A stretch of 23,820 nt of DNA, from positions 1-23,820 of IMG/VR virus record IMGVR_UViG_3300034082_000779. One strand, 5' to 3'. Each line of letters begins with the position of its first letter. Position 1 is the stretch's first letter. The translations under genes and the position numbers were made by a program. Below the pieces are notes generated by a model. It had not been told where the DNA came from, made no database searches, and saw nothing but the letters and a program-made list of their open reading frames with translations. Positions 10,909 to 23,820 of this stretch are shown here, in pieces. The stretch comes from a virus.

Positions 10909-11364
10909 CTACATCTGAGATTGTACGAAAAACGTGCTCTCTTCATCGCCTGACGCCCTACTGTTTGGAAAGTTATTAAGTACCGAGTTAATATAGCGCC
11001 CTTTTGATTGAGCAGACGCAAACGATTGATAAATATGTTCTGGGACGTTCAAGTATTTCCAAGGGGTGCCGTTCTTAATAAAACGAACAAAGAGTATGCC
11101 GTTATATCCAATTGCTCCAGATGTACCTTCAGTAGCGACATATCGGAAGGCTTCTACACGACTACTCTCGTCAGAGGCATGGTAGTAAGTGGTATTTGGA
11201 TCCCATTGAATTGGGATCATTTCTGATGGTTTAAACTTCGTCTCGTTTACACGAGTACGAGTACGCTCTTCTTGAATAGCATATTGACCTGAGTAGTAAT
11301 TTAATCCCTCAGCCAAACGATCTTTTGCTGATCTACTTAGTCCTGGTTTAGGTCTTGGTGCCAC
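10909..11364 (-). CDS. KTSC-domain protein
   Basis: 151 residues from a GTG at 11362-11364. Residues about 66-132 match the KTSC domain pattern: ESSRVEAFRYVATEG, then GILFVRFIKNGTPWKYLNVP, HIYQSFASAQSKGRYINSVL, ending NNFPNS. KTSC domains are found alone in small bacterial and phage proteins and fused to lysyl-tRNA synthetase-like or nucleic-acid proteins; the biochemical role is not established. The N-terminal ~60 residues are basic (RPKPGLSRSAKDRLAEG) and the C-terminal 15 are polar. It lies four bases after the endolysin stop, so the two are co-transcribed. Confidence 0.85.
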   Translation of the reverse strand: MAPRPKPGLSRSAKDRLAEGLNYYSGQYAIQEERTRTRVNETKFKPSEMIPIQWDPNTTYYHASDESSRVEAFRYVATEGTSGAIGYNGILFVRFIKNGTPWKYLNVPEHIYQSFASAQSKGRYINSVLNNFPNSRASGDEESTFFVQSQM

Positions 11365-12202: not shown

Positions 12203-12544
12203 TTATGGGTGATGCACCCAATTTAGGGAGTCTTCATCCCAATGCCAGTGTCCTTCTTCGGGCATTGGGGTTGGTGGTTGCCAGTCGTAGTTTTGGTCAA
12301 GAGACCAAGACGGAAATGGTTGTGGGGCAATAAAAACATCAGCCGTCTCGTTATATGTAAACCCAATACCAGCATATTGCTTGCGGATGTTGTTGTTATA
12401 ACTAGTGCGGACACACTTTTGTCCCATAAATTCTCCGTAGTGGGTTTCCCAATCGGAAATGCCATCAACTACTTCGTCCTCGTTGCGCCCAACAATTACT
12501 TGAGTCACGATGTTGTTTTCATCTAGGAATGCATAGTGTGCCAT
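12203..12544 (-). CDS. Small virion protein following the glycine-rich adhesin
   Basis: 114 residues from MAHYAFLDENN. The ATG at 12542-12544 overlaps the adhesin stop by one base (TAATG), preferred over a start two codons upstream. The pattern is MAHYAFLDENNIVTQVIVG, then WETHYGE, CVRTSYNNN, KQYAGIGFTYNETADVFI, PFPSWSLDQNYDWQPPTP. I know this layout from many marine and freshwater phages, where such proteins sit next to tail-fibre genes and are unannotated or called virion structural. Trp- and Pro-rich, beta-like; ends HWHWDEDSLNWVHHP. Likely partners with the preceding adhesin as a tip or assembly factor (inference). Confidence 0.85.
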   Translation of the reverse strand: MAHYAFLDENNIVTQVIVGRNEDEVVDGISDWETHYGEFMGQKCVRTSYNNNIRKQYAGIGFTYNETADVFIAPQPFPSWSLDQNYDWQPPTPMPEEGHWHWDEDSLNWVHHP

Positions 12545-14259
12545 TACCAAGTCACCGTTCCAGTTCCACCAGTAAATGTATAAACCCTGTAACCCGCACG
12601 ACTAACTGTGCTAACCGAATATGCTAAACCAGCACTAATGCTGGTTATCGCACGAGATGTGCTTGGGTACGCAATGATTACGATACCTGAACCACCAGTT
12701 GTTGTGCCACCAGAGTCACTGGCGCAACCACCACCACCACCAAGGTTTGTTCCACCACCTGTTGATGGGGTACCACCAAAGTTATAGTTAGAACCATTAC
12801 CACCACCGCCTGCGCCACCTGATGGTTGAGATGTACCGCCACCGTTTTTATGGGAGTGCCCACCTCCACCACCAGCACGGGCAACCGAACTACCAGTTAT
12901 AGAACTAGCACGACCCGATCCACCGTTACCACCTTGGTTGGCTACGCCAGCCTGACCTGCGGCGCCTGCGCCACCGCCACCGCCAGCGCCATCGTGACCT
13001 GTGTTGTAGTCAGCGCCAGATCCTGTAGCACCACCAGCGTTACCATAACCAGTTCCTCCTGATGGACTGGACTGGTTAGTTCCACCTCCACCACCACCTC
13101 CTGAACCACCAGTGGTTCCAGAAAGTCCACCACCGTTACCAGTTGCAATACCAAATACTGAGTTACCACCGCTACTTCCAGAACCACCACCGCCAACAGT
13201 GACAGTTAGTGTCCCACCAAGACTTTGGGTACCTTCAACGTATCCGCCTCCGCCTCCGCCTCCGTAACCAGAGCCAGCGCCACCACCACCTACAACTAGG
13301 TACTCTGCCACTGGCGCTGTTGTGAATGAGAATCCAGCAGATTGTGGTCCAATACCGTAAGCATTCTTAGGGCGCAAATAAACTACGTAAGACGATGCGG
13401 CAGTCAAACCACTTAGGTTCAATGGGCTACTAGATACACCAGCGTTAAGCCAACTAGTCAAATAATAGTCGTATCCAGTTATTGCGCCACCGCCAGCGGT
13501 AGTGGAAAAGTTAACTGTTGCTGTTGTGCTTCCAACGGACACAGACGAGATGGTGGTCGTTCCAGTTGGTGGTCCAAGTGTTGTAAACCCAACACCAGTT
13601 GATCCAGGACCTGAACCATACGAGTTAACTCCACGAAGATACACGGTGTATGCGGTGTTTTGGGACAACCCAGAAACAGTTACAGGGCTTACAGCATCTG
13701 CTGGAGACAGAGCAGTCCAAGAAGAGTTGTTGAATGAATACTCGTAGTTGGTCAAACTTGTGCTGCTCGCCGCTGCGGTAAATGATATTGAAACCGATGT
13801 ATCTGTTTGAATTGCCGACAGGCTTGATGGGGCAGAGGTTGGTACACCTTGTGAAGTAAACGAAACTGGTGATGATTCAACGTCACTTACTCCAACATCG
13901 TTTACAGCCTTTAATTTAATTAAGTAAGCAGTGTTTTGTGTAAGACCAGTAACTGTAATTGGCGAAACACCGTCTGCGGGAGACAACGCAGTATACGCAC
14001 TATAAGTAGACCCGCCGTTTGTTGAGATTGCGTACTGATAGTTGGTAATAGTTGCGCCACCAGTATCAGTTGGGGCAGTAAATGCAATGCTTACAGATGT
14101 GTTAGCAGGTGTTGCTGATAGGGAAGTTGGGGCATTTTGGGGGGCGCTAACGCCAACCCATATTGAATGTACTTGCCCAGAATTAGTACGAATACCACGA
14201 GGACTTAAATGGGTAGCAACTTGCTTCCCACCCTCAGTTTTCCTATTAAACGCTACCAT
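12544..14259 (-). CDS. Fibronectin III and glycine-rich tail adhesin
   Basis: 571 residues. After a ~40 residue N-terminal attachment part come three fibronectin type III domains (about 42-137, 141-228, 231-312), recognisable by NTxYxxxLxAVN/RGVN/RPKN-type strands (VTGLTQNTAYLIKLKAVND, VSGLSQNTAYTVYLRGVNS). From about 315 to 530 the protein is a glycine-rich low-complexity domain (EYLVVGGGGAGSGYGGGGGG onwards), ending with SGIVIIAYPS and a beta-rich tail closing GGTGTVTW. Glycine-rich tips form polyglycine helix bundles in some phage adhesins such as Tevenvirinae gp38; a receptor-binding function here is inferred by analogy. Strong GGN/GGT repetition explains many spurious reading frames on both strands. 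Coupled to the small companion gene by TAATG. Confidence 0.85.
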   Translation of the reverse strand: MVAFNRKTEGGKQVATHLSPRGIRTNSGQVHSIWVGVSAPQNAPTSLSATPANTSVSIAFTAPTDTGGATITNYQYAISTNGGSTYSAYTALSPADGVSPITVTGLTQNTAYLIKLKAVNDVGVSDVESSPVSFTSQGVPTSAPSSLSAIQTDTSVSISFTAAASSTSLTNYEYSFNNSSWTALSPADAVSPVTVSGLSQNTAYTVYLRGVNSYGSGPGSTGVGFTTLGPPTGTTTISSVSVGSTTATVNFSTTAGGGAITGYDYYLTSWLNAGVSSSPLNLSGLTAASSYVVYLRPKNAYGIGPQSAGFSFTTAPVAEYLVVGGGGAGSGYGGGGGGGYVEGTQSLGGTLTVTVGGGGSGSSGGNSVFGIATGNGGGLSGTTGGSGGGGGGGTNQSSPSGGTGYGNAGGATGSGADYNTGHDGAGGGGGAGAAGQAGVANQGGNGGSGRASSITGSSVARAGGGGGHSHKNGGGTSQPSGGAGGGGNGSNYNFGGTPSTGGGTNLGGGGGCASDSGGTTTGGSGIVIIAYPSTSRAITSISAGLAYSVSTVSRAGYRVYTFTGGTGTVTW

Positions 14260-14268
14260 GACAGCGCC

Positions 14269-14616
14269 TTAAGCGATTCGGTTAACGTATCCGCTTATCT
14301 GAATTGCGTTAGCGGCGGCAGCACAATAAGCACGAACAACTGTTCCACCAGTCAAAAGAAGACCTGGAACAATTAGATACAACCCGTTTTGTGCTTTAAC
14401 GGTGAATTCAATGTCATCATCTGTTGCCGTTGTTCCGCCCCATTGAATAGTGAGCAAGCGATCCGTTGCGGTGTCGTTAACGGCATATAGCCAAATCTCA
14501 TCCAATGCGGTTGCGTGGGCTGTGTGGATAAGCGTTCCAGCGGAGGCTGTTGCCACAACCTTGATCTGCCTACCGTTTGTTGAACCGCTAAGGGTTGTTT
14601 TGCTATAGGTTGCCAT
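14269..14616 (-). CDS. Small beta-rich tail protein
   Basis: 115 residues. It has no signal peptide and appears to be built of beta strands (TNGRQIKVVATASAGTLIH, EIWLYAVNDTATDRLLTIQW, GLYLIVPGLLLTGG), ending AIQISGYVNRIA. Its pattern of short strands around NDTATDRLLTI resembles the gene at 22448-22786 (NTDTVDRTVTL), suggesting the two are distant paralogs, perhaps tail decoration or baseplate-associated proteins. It lies between a tipless short fibre and the large adhesin, eight to nine bases from each neighbour. Function is inferred only from position. Confidence 0.75.
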   Translation of the reverse strand: MATYSKTTLSGSTNGRQIKVVATASAGTLIHTAHATALDEIWLYAVNDTATDRLLTIQWGGTTATDDDIEFTVKAQNGLYLIVPGLLLTGGTVVRAYCAAAANAIQISGYVNRIA

Positions 14617-14624
14617 GGTTGCGC

Positions 14625-14918
14625 CTAACTGAAGAGTTGCTTACTAATAATTGCTTGGTCACTAGCCCAAACGTCTGCATCAATCTTATCAAGAGTAACA
14701 GATCCTGTGGCTAACTTACCCGAGGTAACAGCCCCAGTACCTAACTTGTTGACAGTCACAGATCCTGTGGCTAACTTGTCTTCGGTAACAGACCCTGTTC
14801 CTATTGACTGGGCGCTTTGAACAAGGCTCCAAGACACACCGTCATATTGCCAAGTGGTGTTTCCAGAGGTAAAGGTGTCGTTAACCGATGGGGAGTTGGG
14901 GAAATCAATCGCTGGCAT
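14625..14918 (-). CDS. Short tipless fibre: DFPNSP module plus 10-residue repeats
   Basis: 97 residues. The N-terminal ~33 residues are the module MPAIDFPNSPSVNDTFTSG...WQYDG..W, present at the start of five fibre genes in this array. It is followed by four copies of a 10-residue repeat (TGSVTEDKLA, TGSVTVNKLG, TGAVTSGKLA, TGSVTLDKID), with a 20-base exact DNA repeat at 14698-14717 and 14758-14777. The protein then stops after WASDQAIISKQLFS without the INGAM...AEL C-terminal domain. It may be a remnant of a longer fibre or a true adaptor. Its start lies 14 bases inside the preceding small gene. Confidence 0.8.
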   Translation of the reverse strand: MPAIDFPNSPSVNDTFTSGNTTWQYDGVSWSLVQSAQSIGTGSVTEDKLATGSVTVNKLGTGAVTSGKLATGSVTLDKIDADVWASDQAIISKQLFS

Positions 14919-15081
14919 CAGGGTTCCATTCTTCTGGAGTGTTGCCTTCTTCTAACCACGCTAGGTATTGTTGGTAATCGGAGTTAGCAAGCGATAAAGG
15001 GATTGACACTTCTCGTTCCCTATCAAACACACCAACAATTTCTTGTGTTGCAGGAGATTTTACAATAATATACTTTTTCAT
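14905..15081 (-). CDS. Small fibre-linked protein, copy 5 (58 aa)
   Basis: 58 residues, MKKYIIVKSPATQE onwards, ending EEWNPDASD. The C-terminal half has the core shared by all five copies in the array ([20 protein letters not shown]); the N-terminal half is unlike the others. It follows the AEL-ending fibre at 15081-16406 with a one-base overlap (TAATG) and its last 14 bases contain the start of the next short fibre. No Shine-Dalgarno of its own is needed if translation is coupled. Similar short proteins near phage tail fibres are known as hypothetical; a fibre-assembly or capping role is inferred from the strict linkage. Confidence 0.85.
   Translation of the reverse strand: MKKYIIVKSPATQEIVGVFDREREVSIPLSLANSDYQQYLAWLEEGNTPEEWNPDASD
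14956..14989. repeat. 34-base exact direct repeat, copy A
   Basis: Identical to 19408-19441 by reading. It encodes the shared core of small fibre-linked copies 5 and 3 and lies in the middle of each gene. Confidence 0.8.
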
Positions 15082-16406
15082 TATAATTCCGCCGAGGCTT
15101 CAATGTTTGCCCAATATGAATAACTGGCTGGGTCAGCGTTAAACGATGCCGTAGTAGACAACCCGCTATTTGTGTATTTTACAAGTATGCCAATGCCATA
15201 TACGCTCAAACCTTCTCCCGAAGCAATAACATAACTTTCCTGCCCGCCACCATAGGCATCAACAAAACCAACACCATTTCCGTTATAGAGCGCAACAGTC
15301 GGTTCAGCCCGCATAGTTACAGGGAAAGCACAGTAGCCAGTAGCAATCATTTGGTAAGCATTTAGTCTTCTAAAATGGGCGTGTCTTGAGTTGAAATCTG
15401 TGGCTAACCCAGTGGTGCTTCGCCAATAGTACCGCTGACACTTCGCAAGTGTTGTACCAATGTCTTCAAACTCAAATGGTGTAGCAACAGAACCAGCCTC
15501 CAACTGCACACCCGTAATATCAAAAGTTCCAGTAGCGTTTGCAGGAAAAACAAGAATAAACGAAACAGAACTATTGGATGTAATAGTTTTACCCGATACT
15601 GATGGCATGGTGAAACTCACGGAGAATCGTTGCCAACTTGAAGTAAAACTAAAGTTTGTTGAGTTTGCTTGAACAGCACCTGAACCGCTAGTACCAAACT
15701 CTTGGTATGTTTGCCAGTTGACAGTTCTTGAAGCATCTGCTTTACCATAAAAACTCAATGTCACAGTTTGACCATTGAGTTTTCGCACATCCTCAATTTT
15801 TGAAAACATACCGTTTGTTGTTGAACCAGTACCAGCAACAGTAATAGCAACACGCATATAGTTTGAAACATTTAAACCAGTTGGATTGTCACCAGTAAAA
15901 GTCTGTTGACTGATTGTTCGTGTTGCACCAGAACCGTCATAGTACATGAACCATCGGTCTGCGGTAAAGGTTGCGTTAGCAGGACTACTAAACGAAGTAC
16001 CTCGTTGCCAAATCTTGAAGTCCCCGTTTACAACCATATTACGACCAGACGTAACAGCCGTAGTCGCAGTTAATTTTGAATCCAACTGGGTTTGAATCGC
16101 TGAAGTAACACCATCCACATATCCAATTTCCGTGGCAGAAACAGTGCCAATAGAGGTTGTGGAAGGGAGTGTGACTGTGCCCGTGAACGTAGGGTTTGCT
16201 TCAATTTTGGCTACAGTTACTGCGTTATTGGTAATCTTTGCAGTAGTAACAGCATTTGAGGCAAGTTGAGTATCCGTGATTGACGCATCTGGGATTGTCG
16301 GAACAACACCTTGAAGAACCCAACCAGTACCGTTGTACTGCCAGTTTTTACCACCAGCAGAAAAGGTTGCGCCGTTAGTAGGAGAGTTAGGGAAATCAAT
16401 TGCCAT
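15081..16406 (-). CDS. Tail fibre with conserved C-terminal domain ending AEL
   Basis: 441 residues. N-terminal DFPNSP module (1-33), 10-residue SIT/AVT repeats (about 40-70), a tail-fibre repeat PTFTGTVTLPSTTSIGTV with YVDGVTSAIQTQLDSK, then the domain RNMVVNGDFKIWQRGTSFSS...TADRW, a beta-sandwich region, [20 protein letters not shown] and CQRYYW. Between FPVTMRAEPT and the final SAEL lies the part that differs most among paralogs. Such mosaic fibres are receptor-binding proteins of tailed phages. AGGA lies six bases before the ATG, inside the previous gene's end. Overlaps the small gene by one base. Confidence 0.9.
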   Translation of the reverse strand: MAIDFPNSPTNGATFSAGGKNWQYNGTGWVLQGVVPTIPDASITDTQLASNAVTTAKITNNAVTVAKIEANPTFTGTVTLPSTTSIGTVSATEIGYVDGVTSAIQTQLDSKLTATTAVTSGRNMVVNGDFKIWQRGTSFSSPANATFTADRWFMYYDGSGATRTISQQTFTGDNPTGLNVSNYMRVAITVAGTGSTTNGMFSKIEDVRKLNGQTVTLSFYGKADASRTVNWQTYQEFGTSGSGAVQANSTNFSFTSSWQRFSVSFTMPSVSGKTITSNSSVSFILVFPANATGTFDITGVQLEAGSVATPFEFEDIGTTLAKCQRYYWRSTTGLATDFNSRHAHFRRLNAYQMIATGYCAFPVTMRAEPTVALYNGNGVGFVDAYGGGQESYVIASGEGLSVYGIGILVKYTNSGLSTTASFNADPASYSYWANIEASAEL

Positions 16407-17139: not shown

Positions 17140-17301
17140 CTAACTATTATCCCATTCTTCGGCTACATTGCCTTCAGCAACCCACGCTAAGTATTGCTGG
17201 TAGTCAGAGTTAGCAGGGTCATCGGGGATAGATATACGTTTATCAGCATCAATTGCTATAACTGAATGTCTATCTTGATAATTCACAATATAATAAATCA
17301 T
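17140..17301 (-). CDS. Small fibre-linked protein, copy 4 (53 aa)
   Basis: 53 residues, MIYYIVNYQDRHSVIA onwards, ending VAEEWDNS. It has the shared core [17 protein letters not shown], with a copy-specific N-terminal half. The start overlaps the stop of the fibre at 17298-19370 by four bases (ATGA); one base separates its stop from the next fibre. The shortest copy: the SPDxx end seen in three others is missing. The tight coupling means that it should be made in proportion to its upstream fibre. Confidence 0.85.
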   Translation of the reverse strand: MIYYIVNYQDRHSVIAIDADKRISIPDDPANSDYQQYLAWVAEGNVAEEWDNS

Positions 17302-19370
17302 AATTCTGCACTCACGTCAAGATAGTCAATTGCGTTACTTGAGTCAATAACCCAAAACAAACTCTCACCTGCTGTTGTGGTATTTTCTGTGTTTACATCT
17401 ATGGATATTCTGTCCAAGCCAGATGAGTTAAAGTTTACTGAAGCAAGACCCCTGTTTGCTAAACCGCCTGTATATAGACGGTGAGTTCCTCCAATTGTTA
17501 TTGTTGGTTTGGTCCTCATAGATACAGGTAATGCAAGTGTTAAACGTCTTATTCCTGGGCTTGTTCCTCCAGTACCAACGCCAACACATAAACCAATATT
17601 TGGTGATATTGCTCCACTTACTTTCCAAAAATACCGTTGGCATTTAGCAAGAGTTGTGCTGTAATCCTCAAACTCAAATGGTGTAGCAACAGCACCAGCC
17701 TCAAGTTGAACACCAGTAATCTGATAATAATTGCTAGTTGCGGCTGCGAGGTTAACTTGACCAACAGCACGATTGGCGGTTGTATTGGATGCCCAGGTCG
17801 TCTGCAATGTTCCAGATGTAAGACCGCTTCCAGCACCCATCCAAAAAGTTACCTGTAATGATTTGGCGTTATCGTTATCAAATGCTCCAGTTGCATCAGC
17901 AGTAAATATGAGGGTTTTCTTTTCCCATGTTGCTGAGGATGAAATTGTGTATTGCAGAGCAGTTTGTCTTGTATTATCAACATCAAATAATTCAGCAACA
18001 TATGTGCCAGTAACATTTGATTTTACCCAAAAAGATAGAGCGAACTGTTTTGCAGATGCAGTTCCTTTGGCGAATTGTTGAAGATTTTGACCTTCAATAT
18101 ATGTAACAACAGCAAGGTTATTTGTTCCAGTTGGTGAAGCATTAGCAGTAGTGCATAACATTTTTAAAGATTTACGAAAACCAGAACCAGTTGGTGCATC
18201 ACTTTCTACAGATTGAGTCCATGTTCCAAGTCCGCTTACTGCCCCTAACCACCTGTCGGCAGTGTAATAACCATCTGCGGTAATGCTTGCTGTAGATGTT
18301 CCTCGCTGGTGAACTTGCATCGCACCGTTAATAACCGCATTACGGTTTGATAGCGACTGGCTAGACCATGAAAGACCAGTAGCAGTAGAGGAATCAGCCA
18401 TCAATACAGAACCGTTAGCACCAACAGTCAAGTTGTCTACTGCGTTATCTGCTGTACCGACAAGTAAGTCACCTTTAGCGTCAATTGCTTGAAGCAAGAG
18501 GTTTACTGGGGCGGCACCAACTTCTACCCAAGCAGAACCGTAGTAAACATAAGTACCACCAGTATCAGAGTTAAACCAAATCTGACCACCGATAGGTGAG
18601 TTAGGTGCAGTCGTAGAAACGGTGGCACCCATTGCTGTTGCGCCAATTTCAATCCATGACGAGTCGTAATACACAAAAGTTTGTGCTGTATCTGACTCAA
18701 ACCACAAAGACCCAACTTCAGGCGAAACAGGGGCGGTATCTGAGATGGTTGCTCCACCAGCACCAAAGTCGGTGTAGTTGGTGCCGTCATTGGTGAATTG
18801 CCATTTATCGGTGGTTTCATTCCAACGTATTTGAACATTGGTGGATGATCCACGTTCAATCTCAATACCAGCGTTTTCTGTTGGGGAACCACTCGCATTG
18901 TTGTTTAGAACAATAATATTGTCGTTTACTGTTACTGTCTCAGTGTTTATGGTTGTGGTTGTTCCACTAACAGTAAAATCACCACTAACAGTCAGGTCAT
19001 TACTTACCGTCACAGTCCCCGTAAATGTAGGGGCCGACAGCGGTGCTTTGGCGTTTAGTTGCGTTTGGATAGCGGATGTCACCCCGTCTACGTAACCCAG
19101 TTCTGTAGAGGTGATTGTTCCAATAGAAGTATCAGAAGGTAGTACAACTGTCCCTGTAAATGTTGGTGAAGCGGTGTTTGCTGGGGTGTACCCAATGTTG
19201 GTTACAGCCGCACCAGAAGCAAGTTTTGCCCCAGTAATAGACGCATTAGCAATACTTAGATTGGCAGGTGTCTGGACAATATCCCAAGACGTTCCGTTAA
19301 AGGTCCAAGCCTTACCATTTGACTCAAAGTAATCATTAAGTGCTGGGGAGTTAGGGAAGTCAATTGCCAT
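17298..19370 (-). CDS. Large mosaic tail fibre ending AEL
   Basis: 690 residues, the longest fibre. In order: DFPNSP module (1-33), SIT repeats, PTFTGTVVLPSDTSIGTI and YVDGVTSAIQTQLNAK repeat, LTVSGDFTVSGTTTTINTE with TVNDNIIVLN (a module I know from cyanophage fibres), two tandem copies of a ~38-residue SDTAPVSPEVGSLWF / STTAPNSPIGGQIWF unit ending in YYxSxWxEIGA, AIDAKGDLLVGTADN, then RNAVINGAMQVHQRGTS, TADRW, a carbohydrate-binding-like beta sandwich, [30 protein letters not shown]-like ALPVSMRTKPT and the final SAEL. The order shows module shuffling. Starts 11 bases inside the previous small gene. Confidence 0.92.
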   Translation of the reverse strand: MAIDFPNSPALNDYFESNGKAWTFNGTSWDIVQTPANLSIANASITGAKLASGAAVTNIGYTPANTASPTFTGTVVLPSDTSIGTITSTELGYVDGVTSAIQTQLNAKAPLSAPTFTGTVTVSNDLTVSGDFTVSGTTTTINTETVTVNDNIIVLNNNASGSPTENAGIEIERGSSTNVQIRWNETTDKWQFTNDGTNYTDFGAGGATISDTAPVSPEVGSLWFESDTAQTFVYYDSSWIEIGATAMGATVSTTAPNSPIGGQIWFNSDTGGTYVYYGSAWVEVGAAPVNLLLQAIDAKGDLLVGTADNAVDNLTVGANGSVLMADSSTATGLSWSSQSLSNRNAVINGAMQVHQRGTSTASITADGYYTADRWLGAVSGLGTWTQSVESDAPTGSGFRKSLKMLCTTANASPTGTNNLAVVTYIEGQNLQQFAKGTASAKQFALSFWVKSNVTGTYVAELFDVDNTRQTALQYTISSSATWEKKTLIFTADATGAFDNDNAKSLQVTFWMGAGSGLTSGTLQTTWASNTTANRAVGQVNLAAATSNYYQITGVQLEAGAVATPFEFEDYSTTLAKCQRYFWKVSGAISPNIGLCVGVGTGGTSPGIRRLTLALPVSMRTKPTITIGGTHRLYTGGLANRGLASVNFNSSGLDRISIDVNTENTTTAGESLFWVIDSSNAIDYLDVSAEL
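17668..17713. repeat. 46-base exact direct repeat, copy A
   Basis: Identical to 23775-23820, where the match reaches the window edge and may continue. It encodes [13 protein letters not shown]. Related, less exact copies of this block lie at about 15463-15517, 19864-19918 and 21128-21182. Confidence 0.8.
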
Positions 19371-19533
19371 CTGGACTCCATTCCTCTGTCACGTTACCTT
19401 CAGCAACCCACGCTAGGTATTGTTGGTAATCGGAGTTAGCAGGGTCAAATGGGATAGCAGACATGTCATCTATTCTCCACACAACAGGTGCCTCACCATC
19501 GTCAAAAAGGTTTTTACATTTCCTGTATCTCAT
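19360..19533 (-). CDS. Small fibre-linked protein, copy 3 (57 aa)
   Basis: 57 residues, [16 protein letters not shown] onwards, ending EEWSPDGN. Shared core [19 protein letters not shown] with a copy-specific N-terminal half that includes one Cys and a VVWRIDD strand. The ATG overlaps the stop of the fibre at 19530-20582 by four bases (ATGA). Its last 11 bases are also the start of the 690-residue fibre (ATGGCAATTGA read in two frames). The DNA for the core is shared with copy 5 as a 34-base exact repeat. Confidence 0.85.
   Translation of the reverse strand: MRYRKCKNLFDDGEAPVVWRIDDMSAIPFDPANSDYQQYLAWVAEGNVTEEWSPDGN
19408..19441. repeat. 34-base exact direct repeat, copy B
   Basis: Partner of 14956-14989, about 4.45 kb away in the same orientation. 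Recombination between them would delete or duplicate two fibre/small-gene pairs with the fibre between. Confidence 0.8.
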
Positions 19534-20582
19534 AACTCAGCCCTTGCTTCTATAACAACGTTCTTGACTGTTATACCTTGCCCTGAAGTCCAGGAGGCAC
19601 CAGTTTTTGTAAACAATAACTCTGTTCCATCTGTGCTTGTGTCTCTAGATGGTAAACCAGAATAGAAACCATTAATAGTTTCATCCGCTAAACCGTTCAT
19701 TGTTGGACCGTTACTAATGTAACCAAAAGTTGGTATGGCTCTCATTGTTACTGGAAACGGAACAGAAACGATTGGAATACTCCCACCGCCACCTACACCT
19801 CCACCAGCGTATATTGCATTACGCCAGTAGTAACGCTTACACTTCAACAATGTTGTTCCGAAGTCTTCAAACTCAAACGGTGTTGCAACTGAACCTTCTT
19901 CAAGTTGAATCCCAGTAATTTCAAAGTTACCTGCATATGAACCACTATTCAAAAAAGGAACAATAGTCATCGCAAGGTTTGCACCCAAAGGGCTAACACC
20001 AATAGTAAAGGTTTTTGAGTACCTAGCCCATGAAGTAGTTGGAACTGGCAAAGCATAATCCAAAACAATTTGATTATTGTTTGTAAGGTTTGTGTCACAG
20101 AAAGCAGCATAAAAACTTAGATTAGATGTAACAGTTGTTGAAGTTCTTGCATAAAAAGAAATTGTCCAAGTAGAGCCAACTGTAAATAATCCTGCGAGTC
20201 CAGCGGCAGGCAATTCAATCGCATGACGCACGGCAGGGTTTCCAGTGCTATTGGCAATACGCAAACAATAAGGAAATTGTCCAGTCCCAGTTTGTCTTGT
20301 CACCGTCCCTGCATCAACAAGAAACCTGTCTGCCGTGTAACTGGATGATGCGGTGAAACTTGTTCCTCGCTGCCAGACACTCATTGCACCGTTAATAACT
20401 TTGTTTCTGCCACCAGCAATAGGAGCCAACACAGTCCACTGTGTACCATCCCATACAGCCGTTTGATCTACATCAGTCATGTATATGACTTGACCGTCAT
20501 ACGGTGACGCAGGACGAGTAGATGACGTACACACACCAGGCTTAACAATTGACTGTGCGCCAACAACACTAGATAGTGGCAT
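19530..20582 (-). CDS. Tail fibre without DFPNSP module, ending AEL
   Basis: 350 residues from [10 protein letters not shown]. An upstream in-frame start at 20660 would read through the core of the preceding small gene in another frame, so I reject it; the chosen ATG lies in the same ATGCC stop/start overlap used elsewhere in the array. The N-terminus goes straight to [20 protein letters not shown] with [17 protein letters not shown], then [62 protein letters not shown], a variable segment and ARAEL. About 100 residues at the front are nearly the same as in the fibre at 20740, implying recent duplication. Confidence 0.88.
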
Positions 20583-20739
20583 CTGGACTCCATTCTTCTG
20601 CTGTGTTACCTTCAGCAACCCATGCAAGGTATTGCTGGTAGTCAGAGTTGGCAGGGTCAAACGGAATTATTGCGTTGTCTTCCAATCTCCGAACTTGGTT
20701 CATAGGACCCCAAGGGGCATCAGGGAATAATTTGTACAT
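20569..20739 (-). CDS. Small fibre-linked protein, copy 2 (56 aa)
   Basis: 56 residues, [16 protein letters not shown] onwards, ending EEWSPDATI. It has the core [19 protein letters not shown]. Its ATG follows the stop of the fibre at 20740-21900 with no base between (TAAATG), and its 3' end overlaps the start of the next fibre by 14 bases. The 49 bases at its 3' end are an exact copy of the 3' end of copy 1 (see the repeats). Confidence 0.85.
20577..20625. repeat. 49-base exact direct repeat, copy A
   Basis: Identical to 23252-23300 by base-by-base reading. It covers the 3' end of small fibre-linked copy 2 and the start codon of the fibre that follows. Confidence 0.85.
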
Positions 20740-21900
20740 TTACAACTCCGCCGATGCTGTGTAAGCATAAAAAATAGTGAAATATCCAGTAGATGTGCTA
20801 CCGCCAATTGATGCTGCTATATTAAATCCGTTTTGATTTATCTGTTGGGCTGATACATATCCAACGGCTGTAGAACCGTCACCGTTTGTTGCATTTGAAG
20901 CCGCCGCCGTACTGCCCGTAGCAGGGGCATATTGAACTACGGTAGGGGTTGCTCTTTTGGGAACCTTAAAGAAAACACCTGAACCAATACGATTGTAAGC
21001 GGCTGGGGTATTGGTATAAATACCTAAACCTATTGATTCGTCCAATGTAGAAGCAGTCCCAGGGGTTGTTCCAATGTTGTATGACTTTTCAAAATATCGT
21101 TGGCATTTCCGCAAAGTGGTTCCGAAGTCTTCGTGTTCAAACGGTGTAGCAACAGCACCTTCTTCAAGTTGAATACCAGTAATCTCAAAATAGTCTGAAG
21201 CGCCAGCAGTACCAGCAGGAATAAAGCCTATTTGGACACCAATCTCCGTGGCTGTTGATGAAATTGCTCCAGTAGCAGTAAACCTTTGCCAAGATGTTGT
21301 TAGCGTTGGACCGCTGCTAATTGGATTTGCCAAACCAGTGTATGCACCACCACCCAAATTGTTTTGGTCTGTTCCAGTTCCAGTCCAAACACTTACACTC
21401 AAAGCAGTTGTGCTAGAAATCCCCGAACTTGCACGAGCATAAAAAGACAAAGTAGCATTTTTCCCTGCTAACCGAACCGAGTTAATAGTTTCTTGTGGTG
21501 AAAAGAAAACCGATGAAACAATAGAAGTCTGACCTGATGTTCTTTGAATACGAAGACAGTTTCTAAATTGTGGGAGTGTTGCTCCACACAACTGTTGGCT
21601 CATTGTTGTGGTAAATCCGTTGTTATAAAACCACCAGCGGTCAGGTCCAACATAACTACCGCCACCTACACCAAGAGTTCCAGAGTTAGTTCCCCGTTGC
21701 CATACATTCATCGCACCATTAATCAAAATGTTTCTGTTACCAGCAATTGGGGCAAGAACAGTCCATTGCGTCCCGTCCCAAACAGCGGTTTGGTCTACAT
21801 CAGTCATATAAATAACCTGACCATCAAACGGGTTCACAGGACGATTAGTTGAGAGGCAGACTCCAGGACGCACGCCTTGTGTCGTAGCAGAAATAGTCAT
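20740..21900 (-). CDS. Tail fibre without DFPNSP module, ending AEL
   Basis: 386 residues. A very short leader (MTISATTQGVRPGVC) leads to [18 protein letters not shown] with [18 protein letters not shown], then ILINGAMNVWQRGTNSGT, VGPDRWWF, a beta-sandwich region, [20 protein letters not shown] (His in place of the usual Phe), CQRYFEKS and a long variable tip to TASAEL. The FPVTMR strand is changed to FFKVPKRATPT. Overlaps the collar gene by four bases (ATGA). One of the five fibres that are followed by a small linked gene. Confidence 0.9.
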   Translation of the reverse strand: MTISATTQGVRPGVCLSTNRPVNPFDGQVIYMTDVDQTAVWDGTQWTVLAPIAGNRNILINGAMNVWQRGTNSGTLGVGGGSYVGPDRWWFYNNGFTTTMSQQLCGATLPQFRNCLRIQRTSGQTSIVSSVFFSPQETINSVRLAGKNATLSFYARASSGISSTTALSVSVWTGTGTDQNNLGGGAYTGLANPISSGPTLTTSWQRFTATGAISSTATEIGVQIGFIPAGTAGASDYFEITGIQLEEGAVATPFEHEDFGTTLRKCQRYFEKSYNIGTTPGTASTLDESIGLGIYTNTPAAYNRIGSGVFFKVPKRATPTVVQYAPATGSTAAASNATNGDGSTAVGYVSAQQINQNGFNIAASIGGSTSTGYFTIFYAYTASAEL

Positions 21901-22448
21901 TGGGTTGCCTTAATGATGTAGTTCAAAACTAGTGTTGGCTGTGTGTTGGAGTGTGCGCTGCCAGAACCAGTATTAGCAGTTTTCAGATATCCAGAACCCG
22001 CTTTATCAACAACGTTTCCACCACTGACAGCCCAAATAATATCGCCGTTAGTGTTTACTGTTCCGCCAGAAGTTGTAACAAAACCATAGTTGTGTAAGTG
22101 GCTTGGGAGTTGCGCTTCAGTCAACGTATGTGTCTGCGCTCCACCAGTAGCACCCAAAGTATTAGAAGCAGAAAGAACCGTACTCGTCAAACGTGAAGCA
22201 GCCGAACCACCCATGTTGTCAACACCAGCAGGAACACGCCCACGCAAATCGGGAAGATTAAAAGTTGTTGACCCGTCACCCGAACCATAAGTCGTACTCA
22301 ACGCATTGAACAACGCTGAATAATCTGTACGGCTAACAGCCTGACCAGCACACATCAACCAGCCAGCAGGCGCATTAACACCAGCGAACGCCGATACCAC
22401 CCCAACAGGAACCTGCGAAGGTACGCCCAATCCAACAGACAATCCCAT
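21897..22448 (-). CDS. Phage tail collar domain protein
   Basis: 183 residues. Residues about 15-75 match the tail-collar domain: GVVSAFAGVNAPAGWLMCAG, then YSALFNALSTTYGSGDGSTT and FNLPDLRGRVPAGVD. The rest carries HTLTEAQLPSHLHNYG and ends in SNTQPTLVLNYIIKATQ, the usual end of collar/fibre-tip proteins that trimerise and may bind metal through His residues. It likely forms a short fibre tip or a hinge. Coupled on both sides: TAATG with the preceding gene and ATGA with the following fibre. Confidence 0.92.
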   Translation of the reverse strand: MGLSVGLGVPSQVPVGVVSAFAGVNAPAGWLMCAGQAVSRTDYSALFNALSTTYGSGDGSTTFNLPDLRGRVPAGVDNMGGSAASRLTSTVLSASNTLGATGGAQTHTLTEAQLPSHLHNYGFVTTSGGTVNTNGDIIWAVSGGNVVDKAGSGYLKTANTGSGSAHSNTQPTLVLNYIIKATQ

Positions 22449-22786
22449 TAGGCAGTCTGCTTCTCCCAGCCAACGGCGGTTACCGTGACTTTGGCGGCTG
22501 TGTCTGACAATCCTTGTAATGTCTCACCAGCGGCTAGAACAATAGCGGTATCCCAGACCATGAGATCGTTTGCGCCAATAGGGAGCGCCGACATGATGCG
22601 GTTAGCGGCTGTAGCCGCAGACCCAATAGCCAACGTCACAGTACGGTCAACCGTATCCGTGTTTGCAATGATTATTTGCTTAATGATGTCAGCGTACCCA
22701 GTTGCGGCTGTAACAATTGTGGTCGTAGATGTGCCTAATTGGACTGGGCCACCAAGCCGTGCTTCGTTTCTGTCTCCGATTGCCAT
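22448..22786 (-). CDS. Small beta-rich tail protein
   Basis: 112 residues. AGGAGC four bases before the ATG. Beta-strand-rich, Ala/Thr/Ile-rich (IIKQIIIANTDTVDRTVTLAIG, LPIGANDLMVWDTAIVLAAG), ending TVTAVGWEKQTA. Resembles the protein at 14269-14616 in size and in the NT/ND-T-x-DR-x-(L/V)T motif. Probably a tail-associated structural protein. It starts with no gap after the preceding short fibre (TAAATG) and overlaps the collar gene by one base. Confidence 0.75.
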   Translation of the reverse strand: MAIGDRNEARLGGPVQLGTSTTTIVTAATGYADIIKQIIIANTDTVDRTVTLAIGSAATAANRIMSALPIGANDLMVWDTAIVLAAGETLQGLSDTAAKVTVTAVGWEKQTA

Positions 22787-23257
22787 TTACGCTCCTATGG
22801 TCATAGTCATAATTGCACCTTCTGTAGTGGTTGAAAGACCACCAGACGGAGGGATGATTGACCATTTTACACCCGAAGTGGTAGACGAGTCAGCGGTCAG
22901 AACGTAGGCGTTAGATGCTCCAGCCGCTAGTTTTGCCGCCGTAATAGCGTTTGTGGCTATTTTTGCTGTGGTAACAGCGTCACTAGCAAGTTTGGCATCA
23001 GTAACGGCAAGTGCGGCTATTTTTGCAGTAGTGACTGCATCAGTAGCAAGTTTTGTCTCCGTAACGGCGTTTGCGGCTACTTTTATAGCAGTAACTGAGT
23101 CCGTAGCAAGTTTGTCAGCGGTTACTTCACCCGTAGCAATAACGTAGGTTGCTGGGGTACTAAGTATCCAAGCAGAGCCGTTGTAGACCCAGCGCTTACC
23201 CCCAGATACAAAAGCGTCATTAGTTGACGGGCTATTGGGAAAATCAATCGCTGGCAT
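22787..23257 (-). CDS. Short tipless fibre with seven 10-residue repeats
   Basis: 156 residues from MPAIDFPNSPSTND; a longer form starting at 23293 runs through the preceding small gene in another frame and is rejected. Residues 1-33 are the DFPNSP module (DFPNSP...WVYNGSAW). Residues about 44-113 are seven 10-residue repeats of the type AVTxxKLAxD. A conserved end, AYVLTADSSTTSGVKWSI, is followed by GAIMTMTIGA and stop, with no INGAM or AEL domain. Such repeats form trimeric beta-helix or coiled shafts. Starts 14 bases inside the preceding small gene. Confidence 0.85.
   Translation of the reverse strand: MPAIDFPNSPSTNDAFVSGGKRWVYNGSAWILSTPATYVIATGEVTADKLATDSVTAIKVAANAVTETKLATDAVTTAKIAALAVTDAKLASDAVTTAKIATNAITAAKLAAGASNAYVLTADSSTTSGVKWSIIPPSGGLSTTTEGAIMTMTIGA
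22919..23131. repeat. Tandem 30 bp repeats in the short fibre gene
   Basis: Seven degenerate 30-base units encode the 10-residue AVTxxKLAxD repeats. On the plus strand the phrase GTAACxGC...GCAAGTTT recurs with that period. Copy number of such units can change by slippage or unequal recombination, changing shaft length. Confidence 0.7.
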
Positions 23258-23429
23258 CTGGACTCCATTCTTCTGCTGTGTTACCTTCAGCAACCCATGC
23301 GTCGTATGCGGCTTTGTTTGGGTTGTCGTCAGTTAAAGGGAATGACATGAAACCACCGTCATGTAATCTTTTCATGATATGGCGTTGGACTTCTCCCATT
23401 ATTGTTGGTATATCAGAATAATAAAACAT
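23244..23429 (-). CDS. Small fibre-linked protein, copy 1 (61 aa)
   Basis: 61 residues from the ATG at 23427-23429 (MFYYSDIPTIMGEV), which overlaps the upstream fibre stop by one base (TGATG); a GTG one codon earlier is less likely. This copy is the most divergent: the core reads [20 protein letters not shown], keeping AWVAEGN and EEWSPD but not DYQQYL. It ends SPDASD, and its last 14 bases hold the next fibre's start. Confidence 0.85.
   Translation of the reverse strand: MFYYSDIPTIMGEVQRHIMKRLHDGGFMSFPLTDDNPNKAAYDAWVAEGNTAEEWSPDASD
23252..23300. repeat. 49-base exact direct repeat, copy B
   Basis: Partner of 20577-20625, 2.7 kb away. It covers the 3' end of small fibre-linked copy 1 and the ATG of the short tipless fibre, so it sits exactly at a module junction. 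Confidence 0.85.
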
Positions 23430-23820
23430 CACAACTCCGCACTAAATCCAAGGTAACTTGAACCACCATTATGAATAATGTAATAGGTTCTAAAAGCGGT
23501 AAAACCAGTTGCGGTTGCCGCTATTCCAACCGTATTTTCAGTACTTACTGTTCCGTCTAAACCAAAAGTATAAAAAACCTGAGCAGCGTTAAACAGGTCA
23601 AACGCTCGTAAAGAACCAGCGTCTATGGATGTTGGCGCAACTCTCATGCTTACTGGAAGCGGAATAACACCATACAAATTACTTCCTGTTTGTGCGGTCA
23701 ATAATCCATAGTTTTTTTCACCGCTTCTTCGCTGGTAGTAACGCTGACACTTTTGCAAAGTCACACCAATGTCTTCAAACTCAAATGGTGTAGCAACAGC
23801 ACCAGCCTCAAGTTGAACAC
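23429..23820 (-). CDS. Tail fibre ending AEL (N-terminal part beyond window)
   Basis: Only the C-terminal ~130 residues are in the window; the frame is open to position 23820, so an apparent start at 23764 is internal. The visible part begins in [15 protein letters not shown] and continues with CQRYYQRRS, IPLPVSMRVAPT, a variable tip and the end LGFSAEL. It is the fifth fibre with this domain. The first 46 bases visible (23775-23820) are identical to 17668-17713 in the 690-residue fibre. Confidence 0.88.
   Translation of the reverse strand, partial: VQLEAGAVATPFEFEDIGVTLQKCQRYYQRRSGEKNYGLLTAQTGSNLYGVIPLPVSMRVAPTSIDAGSLRAFDLFNAAQVFYTFGLDGTVSTENTVGIAATATGFTAFRTYYIIHNGGSSYLGFSAEL
23775..23820. 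repeat. 46-base exact direct repeat, copy B
   Basis: Partner of 17668-17713, 6.1 kb apart and in the same orientation, at the boundary between the common beta-sandwich and the variable tip of the fibre. Confidence 0.8.

Follow-up and report, generated by a model that had tools for sequence, protein, structure and literature searches.

What a tail-fibre protein does without a receptor-binding tip is the question raised by two mini-fibre genes in the window analysed here, an entire linear IMG/VR contig of 23,820 bases in which the tail genes concerned all lie on the minus strand (Table 1). Both genes are intact ORFs that begin MPAIDFPNSP, the first with an ATG start and four decad repeats, and their N-module and repeats are common to other fibres of the window. 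The initial annotation had described intact frames, the DFPNSP module and decad repeats, with a gene for a small beta-rich protein after each mini-fibre; our ORF analysis bears this out, with a gap of 8 nt between mini-fibre 1 and its beta gene and a gap of 0 for mini-fibre 2. Each mini-fibre starts inside the end of a small ORF (14908-15081 and 23244-23432, respectively), and two of the small ORFs that lie ahead of mini-fibres matched no Pfam family at E 0.5. The mini-fibres were also said to stop without a receptor-binding domain. Pfam and PHROG searches indeed found no tip domain in either, but that description overlooked a conserved, partner-specific tag at the C-terminus.

We propose that the mini-fibres are proximal anchors and that the beta protein, here called the hub, is a predicted joint linking the C-terminal tag of the anchor to the N-terminal tag of a distal piece, a reading that we consider fairly probable. 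The DFPNSP N-module would most likely attach the mini-fibre to the virion, the decad repeats would form a short shaft, and the last 12-14 residues would serve as a class-specific docking peptide, received by the small, all-beta, jelly-roll-like protein of the next gene. The hub, probably a symmetric oligomer to judge from its fold neighbours, would also take up the N-terminal peptide of the third gene's product, which in the window is an fn3/glycine-rich protein of 571 aa in one cassette and a collar protein in the other, and which would bind the receptor. With the hub as a joint, unrelated proximal and distal pieces could be exchanged whenever their peptides match. More tentatively, and with slightly more doubt than belief, we suggest a widespread plug-and-socket code built on a superfamily of free-standing, jelly-roll-like joints in several classes. 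Each class would read its own C- and N-terminal peptides, and phages ranging from those of environmental contigs to T4-like cyanophages would assemble fibres out of exchangeable segments, in some cases through two consecutive joints. Our literature search, which covered mostly titles and the openings of abstracts, brought up no description that we recognised of such an anchor-hub-distal cassette.

Table 1. Genes and terminal peptides of the two proposed anchor-hub-distal cassettes in the window
Feature	Position	Strand	Description
Anchor 1 (mini-fibre 1)	14625..14918	(-)	97 aa; N-module (1-33), then decad repeats (38-79) and tag 1 at the C-terminus
C-terminal tag 1 of anchor 1	14628..14669	(-)	WASDQAIISKQLFS; ends 61/87 distinct proteins before beta-1 relatives
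Hub 1 (beta-1)	14269..14616	(-)	115 aa, all-beta; phrog_30535 (unknown function), E 1.2e-32
Distal protein 1	12544..14259	(-)	571 aa; fn3 domains and a glycine-rich domain behind the N-terminal motif; presumed adhesin; phrog_2295
N-terminal tag of distal protein 1	14152..14259	(-)	MVAFNRKTEGGKQVATHLSPRGIRTNSGQVHSIWVG; LxPRxxR-type motif
Anchor 2 (mini-fibre 2)	22787..23257	(-)	156 aa; N-module, about 8 decad repeats and a last segment of 40 aa that ends in tag 2
C-terminal tag 2 of anchor 2	22790..22825	(-)	TEGAIMTMTIGA; ends 57/104 distinct proteins before beta-2-like genes
Hub 2 (beta-2)	22448..22786	(-)	112 aa; phrog_1276 (unknown function), E 6.4e-6
Distal protein 2	21897..22448	(-)	183 aa with a phage collar domain; second half resembles the C-terminal domain of T4 gp10
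N-terminal tag of distal protein 2	22425..22448	(-)	MGLSVGLG; M[GASP][LIVFMS]x(2-4)[LYI]G start

Relatives were taken from viral contigs: 80 of the 435 found for beta-1, 76 for mini-fibre 1, 73 for beta-2 and 80 of at least 464 for mini-fibre 2. For the tags, we compared the protein encoded just before each beta relative and counted distinct pairs; 11 further hubs without a usable upstream ORF stand outside these counts. Relatives of the mini-fibres and of the beta genes adjoin in other contigs too, so the pair proposed in the initial annotation recurs and is more than a chance arrangement, but the unit appears to comprise three genes, the third of which had been overlooked. The tag-bearing gene before the beta protein ranges from fewer than 60 to 873 aa, with the tag at the very C-terminus, as the pattern itself demands, and among these tag-bearing relatives we saw no full-length fibre with a tip at the same locus. 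Short anchors are frequent: no more than 160 aa are encoded by 33 of the 60 distinct upstream ORFs with tag 1 and by 26 of the 55 with tag 2, although contig ends truncate some of these. At four loci (L146, L155, L157 and L158), anchors of 54 aa carry the DFPNSP module almost directly on a ..LMGA tail.

Anchor 1 ends in tag 1 (..SDQAIISKQLFS) and anchor 2 in tag 2 (..TEGAIMTMTIGA), and either tag is found again on proteins whose N-modules and shafts are unrelated, provided that the gene of the same beta protein comes next. Counts of the tags, as of the N-terminal motifs described below, are descriptive and not an independent test, because the patterns were written after seeing the same data. 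Tag 1 had no match in 26 of the 87 distinct beta-1 pairs, of which, read by eye, nine have a MATTNDAM-type module upstream, 11 a looser ..FS/..FG tail and six neither. The nine MATTNDAM-type upstream proteins may not be anchors. Tag 2 was absent from 47 of the 104 beta-2-like pairs, and by hand count three other tails recur among the 47, accounting for 33 (LMGA-type 25, MEVM/I four, WMGV four) and leaving 14 with none of them. Read in the reverse direction across 14,554 ORFs, 63 distinct tag-1 tails stood before beta-1 in 55 cases, before beta-2 in none and before neither in eight, and all 44 distinct tag-2 tails were followed by a beta-2-like gene.

The tag goes with the hub and not with the N-module. 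Grouped by BLAST on residues 1-45, the 187 distinct upstream proteins gave 22 N-module groups with at least two members and 18 singletons, with tag 1 on up to nine groups and tag 2 on up to 11; these group numbers are upper bounds, since some groups are ORFs cut by contig ends. N-modules 0, 1, 2 and 7 were each found with both hub classes. Tag similarity correlated with hub similarity (r 0.69, 163 thinned pairs), and for unrelated N-modules r was 0.66, a value reached in 0 of 1000 permutations, against 0.08 for a control segment lying 30-44 residues from the protein end. Mean tag similarity was 0.14 for pairs with different N-modules and the same hub class (5794 pairs) and -0.06 for pairs with the same N-module and different hub classes (594 pairs). 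Within classes, tag and hub co-varied for tag 2 (r 0.35, 0 of 1000 permutations); within beta-1 the co-variation was not significant (r 0.07, 157 of 1000 permutations).

The tag codons are under protein-level constraint. Nearest-neighbour pN/pS was 0.095/0.465 for tag 1 (55 records) against 0.353/0.576 for the control segment, and 0.058/0.379 for tag 2 (44 records) against 0.130/0.501. The last three codons of tag 2 also hold AGGAG (22792-22796), the likely ribosome site of hub 2, and GGA lies within the last tag-2 codons in 42 of 44 cases; the last three residues of tag 2 are therefore weak evidence, as their codons hold a GGAG ribosome site that may fix them. In the tag-1 examples presented, the ribosome site is readable in the intergenic gap, not in the tag.

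A second peptide lies on the other side of the hub, at the start of the third gene's product. The window fits both N-terminal motifs, with MVAFNRKTEGGKQVATHLSPRGIRTNSGQVHSIW.. after hub 1 and MGLSVGLG.. after hub 2. With patterns written on the same data, the LxPRxxR-type motif was counted in 49 of the 94 proteins that follow beta-1, in none of the 106 that follow beta-2-like hubs and in 51 of 3148 background ORFs. M[GASP][LIVFMS]x(2-4)[LYI]G starts 46 of the 51 proteins that follow tag-2 hubs, 7 of the 55 behind other beta-2-like hubs, none of the 94 that follow beta-1 and 33 of 3148 in the background. A pattern-free comparison of the third-gene N-terminus with the hub, across unrelated bodies, gave r 0.56, with 0.15 for the control and 0 of 1000 permutations. 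The bodies of these proteins differ (glycine-rich, collar and others), yet the N-terminal motif is class-specific, and this points to a joint, and not the tip, as the role of the beta protein. By count, 72 of 94 proteins after beta-1 are glycine-rich but only 49 of 106 after beta-2-like hubs, where 7 are collar proteins; a separate grouping placed 9 proteins downstream of beta-2 with distal protein 2. The glycine-rich background of 463 of 2311 is inflated, since the loci are rich in fibres. In the window, Pfam assigns fn3 (1.9e-19) to distal protein 1, with Gly_rich_2 at 4.8e-4 (20.6 bits, under the cut-off of 24.3), and distal protein 2 matches PF07484 (E 4.3e-24, above cut-off) and PF21939 Gp10_C (E 1e-6, 30.2 bits, above the cut-off of 27). 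The glycine-rich gene is followed at 12203-12550 by a gene for a 115-aa protein of phrog_7759 (E 1.1e-37), a family of unknown function.

The two hubs match different PHROG families. Residues 1-114 of hub 1 align to positions 1-123 of the 125 of phrog_30535, and hub 2 matches positions 13-112 of the 325 of phrog_1276, that is, the hub part alone; at E 0.01 phrog_1276 matched in 0 of 14 control genomes, and at E up to 1 in one (Thermotoga maritima). Neither hub matches any Pfam family at E 0.1, known chaperone models included, nor any of the Pfam gp10 models. A sequence search of the PDB gave two insignificant matches for A1 (best E 0.28) and none for A3. The suggestion that the two beta proteins are paralogous finds weak backing: BLASTP gave no match between them at E=10, but a single hhalign comparison returned a probability of 68% (E 5e-5), the beta-1 HMM was matched at 3e-4 by one distinct beta-2 protein found at five overlapping loci, and several fold neighbours are common to both. 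From these profile comparisons, the hubs are probably remote homologues.

The beta-1 model is all-beta (pLDDT 95.7), and its fold is likely jelly-roll-like to judge from its neighbours. Ena3A comes closest (Z 8.2, 99 residues, rmsd 2.7), and the others include Chlamydia Pgp3, a Helicobacter phage cement protein, nucleoplasmin cores and C1q-type heads, as well as carbohydrate-binding modules at Z of about 6 to 7. Hub 2, modelled as a read-through with anchor 2, has a pLDDT mostly above 90, and its neighbours overlap the beta-1 list in part, led by plant HDT2 (Z 8.8, 95 residues, rmsd 2.9) and including the HFTV1 turret (Z 8.3, 98 residues, rmsd 2.7). With a best Foldseek E of 2e-3 in the PDB and VIA Z of about 8 to 9 at best, we draw no function from the fold, because such Z are common to many unrelated beta proteins and show only a common arrangement. 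In the read-through monomer model, hub 2 and the N-module are confident and the tag is undocked, with low confidence.

Several loci vary the basic layout. In L009 and L010, which are near-duplicates, and in L204, an anchor, a hub, a rod, a second hub and a distal protein follow in series. L174 has a tag-1 anchor directly followed by a glycine-rich protein with the N-terminal tag and no hub of its own, and a full beta-1 cassette lies just downstream; from the gene order, it looks as if two cassettes share one hub. This stretch (L174:8179-11383) consists of a 59-aa DFPNSP ORF and two tandem anchor/glycine-rich cassettes, with a hub gene in the second only. A stricter beta-1 N-terminal pattern matched 40 times in the loci: 37 times after a hub, once directly after a tag ORF, in L174, and twice in what look like chance matches. 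Among the fetched viral loci, we found no natural fusion, in the sense of a hub domain lying over 50 residues into an ORF. EBPR podovirus 3 gp13 joins a shaft-like segment to a beta-1 domain (29%, E 1e-10), with a free hub adjoining, and a scan with this protein found one locus.

Related layouts occur in named phages. In Pontimonas phage phiPsal1, an 86-aa protein ending DNALMLMGG precedes the hub. The T4-like cyanophage P-SSM2 has three hub-containing fibre loci (L319, L355 and L358), in one of which the hub is joined to a further C-terminal domain. Its hub gene 294 sits between fibre genes 293 and 295. PSSM2_022, flanked by the fibre genes 021 and 023, covers phrog_1276 in full (325 positions); free hubs cover the first 112 or so of these, the first third. 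By eye, P-SSM2 293 (..VTPLILALGGE) - 294 - 295, P-SSM2 021 (..LTPLILALR) - 022 - 023 and S-SCSM1 26 (..VTPFILALGGN) - 27 - 28 appear to have the same layout with other tags, and the third proteins (P-SSM2 295, P-SSM2 023 and S-SCSM1 28) have SGR near the start in common. Likewise by eye, P-SSM2 301 (..EFFVGQI), S-CAM1 229 (..FTFWAGAM) and AcaML1 50 (..RAFFYAQM) are each followed by a hub and then by a protein starting MGR. The hub SSCSM1_27 of cyanophage S-SCSM1, a remote relative of the window hubs (phrog_1276 match, E 5e-12), is annotated as 'virion protein' and lies between fibre genes 26 and 28, which carry the same flag. The part of the S-SCSM1 paper available to us reports 45 virion proteins by mass spectrometry (PMC9602691); by our hand count the record flags 48 CDS, so that flag and paper agree closely but not exactly.

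Exceptions also exist. No shared tag is evident at the hubs of HMO-2011, Melnitz, ctKpZ937 and Pam2, and PA-SR01 has its pre-hub gene on the opposite strand. A genome scan for beta-1 relatives gave 29 loci. Two of these keep the fibre setting, L326 bearing tag 1 and L325 a similar tail, and one, L353, is fragmentary. The bins that hold the remaining 26 are titled Chloroflexi, Chloroflexota, Anaerolineae or Anaerolineales; at these loci the upstream protein is another one, of MAWTTPKTDW type in 20 of them by reading, the downstream gene differs and tag 1 is missing. The beta-1 family is therefore not always used in tagged cassettes. These relatives (L327-L352) are 44-54% identical to beta-1, several bins hold more than one copy, and they lie mostly between the MAWTTPKTDW-type protein and a ..GDHVQVLVDGYDITGDSN.. 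type protein. They are perhaps tail genes of prophages or tailocins.

The main rival to the joint reading takes the beta protein for an assembly chaperone specific to the fibre, or for a transient cap, which recognises the C-terminal tag and leaves before the virion matures, as Tfa-type chaperones do; we regard this as unlikely but worth serious attention. Chaperone genes often adjoin fibre genes, and a tag at the fibre end would suit such a role. Precedents come from the accessible portions of two papers, in which a beta-sandwich domain of Pam3 gp25 embraces the distal part of the fibre (PMC9608196) and Alteromonas chaperones are proposed as transient caps (PMC10579305). Against a chaperone, the hub goes together with the next gene's N-terminal motif as well, two named phages have it joined to a shaft segment or to an additional C-terminal domain, a remote relative is recorded as a virion protein, and three loci place two hubs in series between rods. 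Another role, along the lines of the docking suggested in the initial annotation, would make the beta protein a receptor-binding tip on a tipless shaft, with the third gene as an independent fibre. Direct adjacency, the tag and the carbohydrate-binding modules among the fold neighbours are consistent with it, but beta-1 is more conserved than one would expect of a host-recognition tip (mean column identity 66% over 71 aligned sequences) and the third gene bears a hub-specific N-terminal motif; we consider a tip rather improbable.

We give still less credit to the idea that tag, hub gene and third-gene start form one recombination block, whose conserved ends are breakpoints and bind nothing. 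The tag and the N-terminal motif do flank the hub gene, the anchor differs before near-identical beta-1 hubs (L008, L009 and L013), and the ribosome site explains part of tag 2, but the tag codons are more constrained at the protein level than the neighbouring segment, and in L174 tag 1 and the N-terminal motif persist with no hub gene between them. That the mini-fibres are decaying remnants of full-length fibres, as the initial annotation also considered, is highly improbable, and we rejected it. Their N-module and repeats, shared with other fibres of the window, would fit such an origin, but the frames are intact, short anchors recur, and pN is well under pS in both genes against their nearest relative, IMGVR 3300032295_001098 (0.018/0.159 for mini-fibre 1 and 0.013/0.117 for mini-fibre 2), indicating purifying selection. 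The alternative it offered, a functional short shaft onto which the beta protein docks, gains indirect support from the recurrence of the pair, from this selection and from the way the tag tracks the beta class across unrelated fibres.

The joint reading has parallels in known systems. In the T4 long tail fibre (gp34-gp35-gp36-gp37), the small joint protein gp35 is encoded between the proximal and distal fibre genes. The window hub gene likewise lies between proximal and distal pieces, but gp35 is one dedicated protein whereas hubs come in classes with exchangeable partners, and the likeness is one of gene layout only. In Salmonella phage S16 and T2-type phages, the separately encoded gp38 adhesin, with a glycine-rich domain, is attached to the end of gp37. 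The window similarly encodes an adhesin candidate with a putative glycine-rich domain apart from the shaft; unlike gp38, which sits on the shaft itself, it has a separate beta protein in between and tags on both partners. S16 gp38 is described in the accessible part of PMC9608196. In the anchor-branch systems of G7C, K1-5 and Klebsiella phages, according to the excerpt of PMC6872550 available to us, fibres are joined via short conserved terminal peptides to a docking domain, an N-terminal peptide docking to the T4gp10-like domain of another protein. The window differs by adding a C-terminal peptide and a free-standing hub, with peptides on both sides of it; the hubs themselves have no gp10 match, but the collar protein matches PF21939. 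As with Tfa-type chaperones and Pam3 gp25, to go by the portions of PMC9608196 and PMC10579305 at hand, a small protein encoded beside the fibre gene would act at the distal end, but a Tfa-type chaperone leaves the fibre, whereas the two-sided motifs and one virion record point to a structural joint. In the Bacillus spore systems ExsF/BclA and F-ENA/F-Anchor, the available section of a preprint (PMC11952670) describes terminal peptides of long filaments that dock in clefts of a small trimeric joint. Those systems lie on the spore surface and use N-terminal peptides; we found no sequence relation to them, and the resemblance in fold (Ena3A) is weak.

Should the tags prove to be docking peptides, about a dozen residues would tell which partner a fibre piece has, and many short 'truncated' fibre genes of viral metagenomes would be explained. 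Exchange of host-recognition parts between unrelated phages would then be directly testable, and a function would be suggested for phrog_30535 and phrog_1276.

The window holds further features. The fibres at 15081-16406, 17298-19370, 19530-20660, 20740-21900 and 23429-23818, the last of which runs off the contig, share an [S/R]AEL ending, and behind each comes an overlapping small ORF; in the fetched loci plus the window 25 of 30 distinct AEL-ending ORFs of at least 150 aa are followed by such an ORF. The AEL ending and the small ORF are possibly another tag/partner system or a chaperone, and part of AEL may be a ribosome site. Additionally, the window encodes a KTSC domain protein at 10909-11364 (PF13619, E 3.3e-12).
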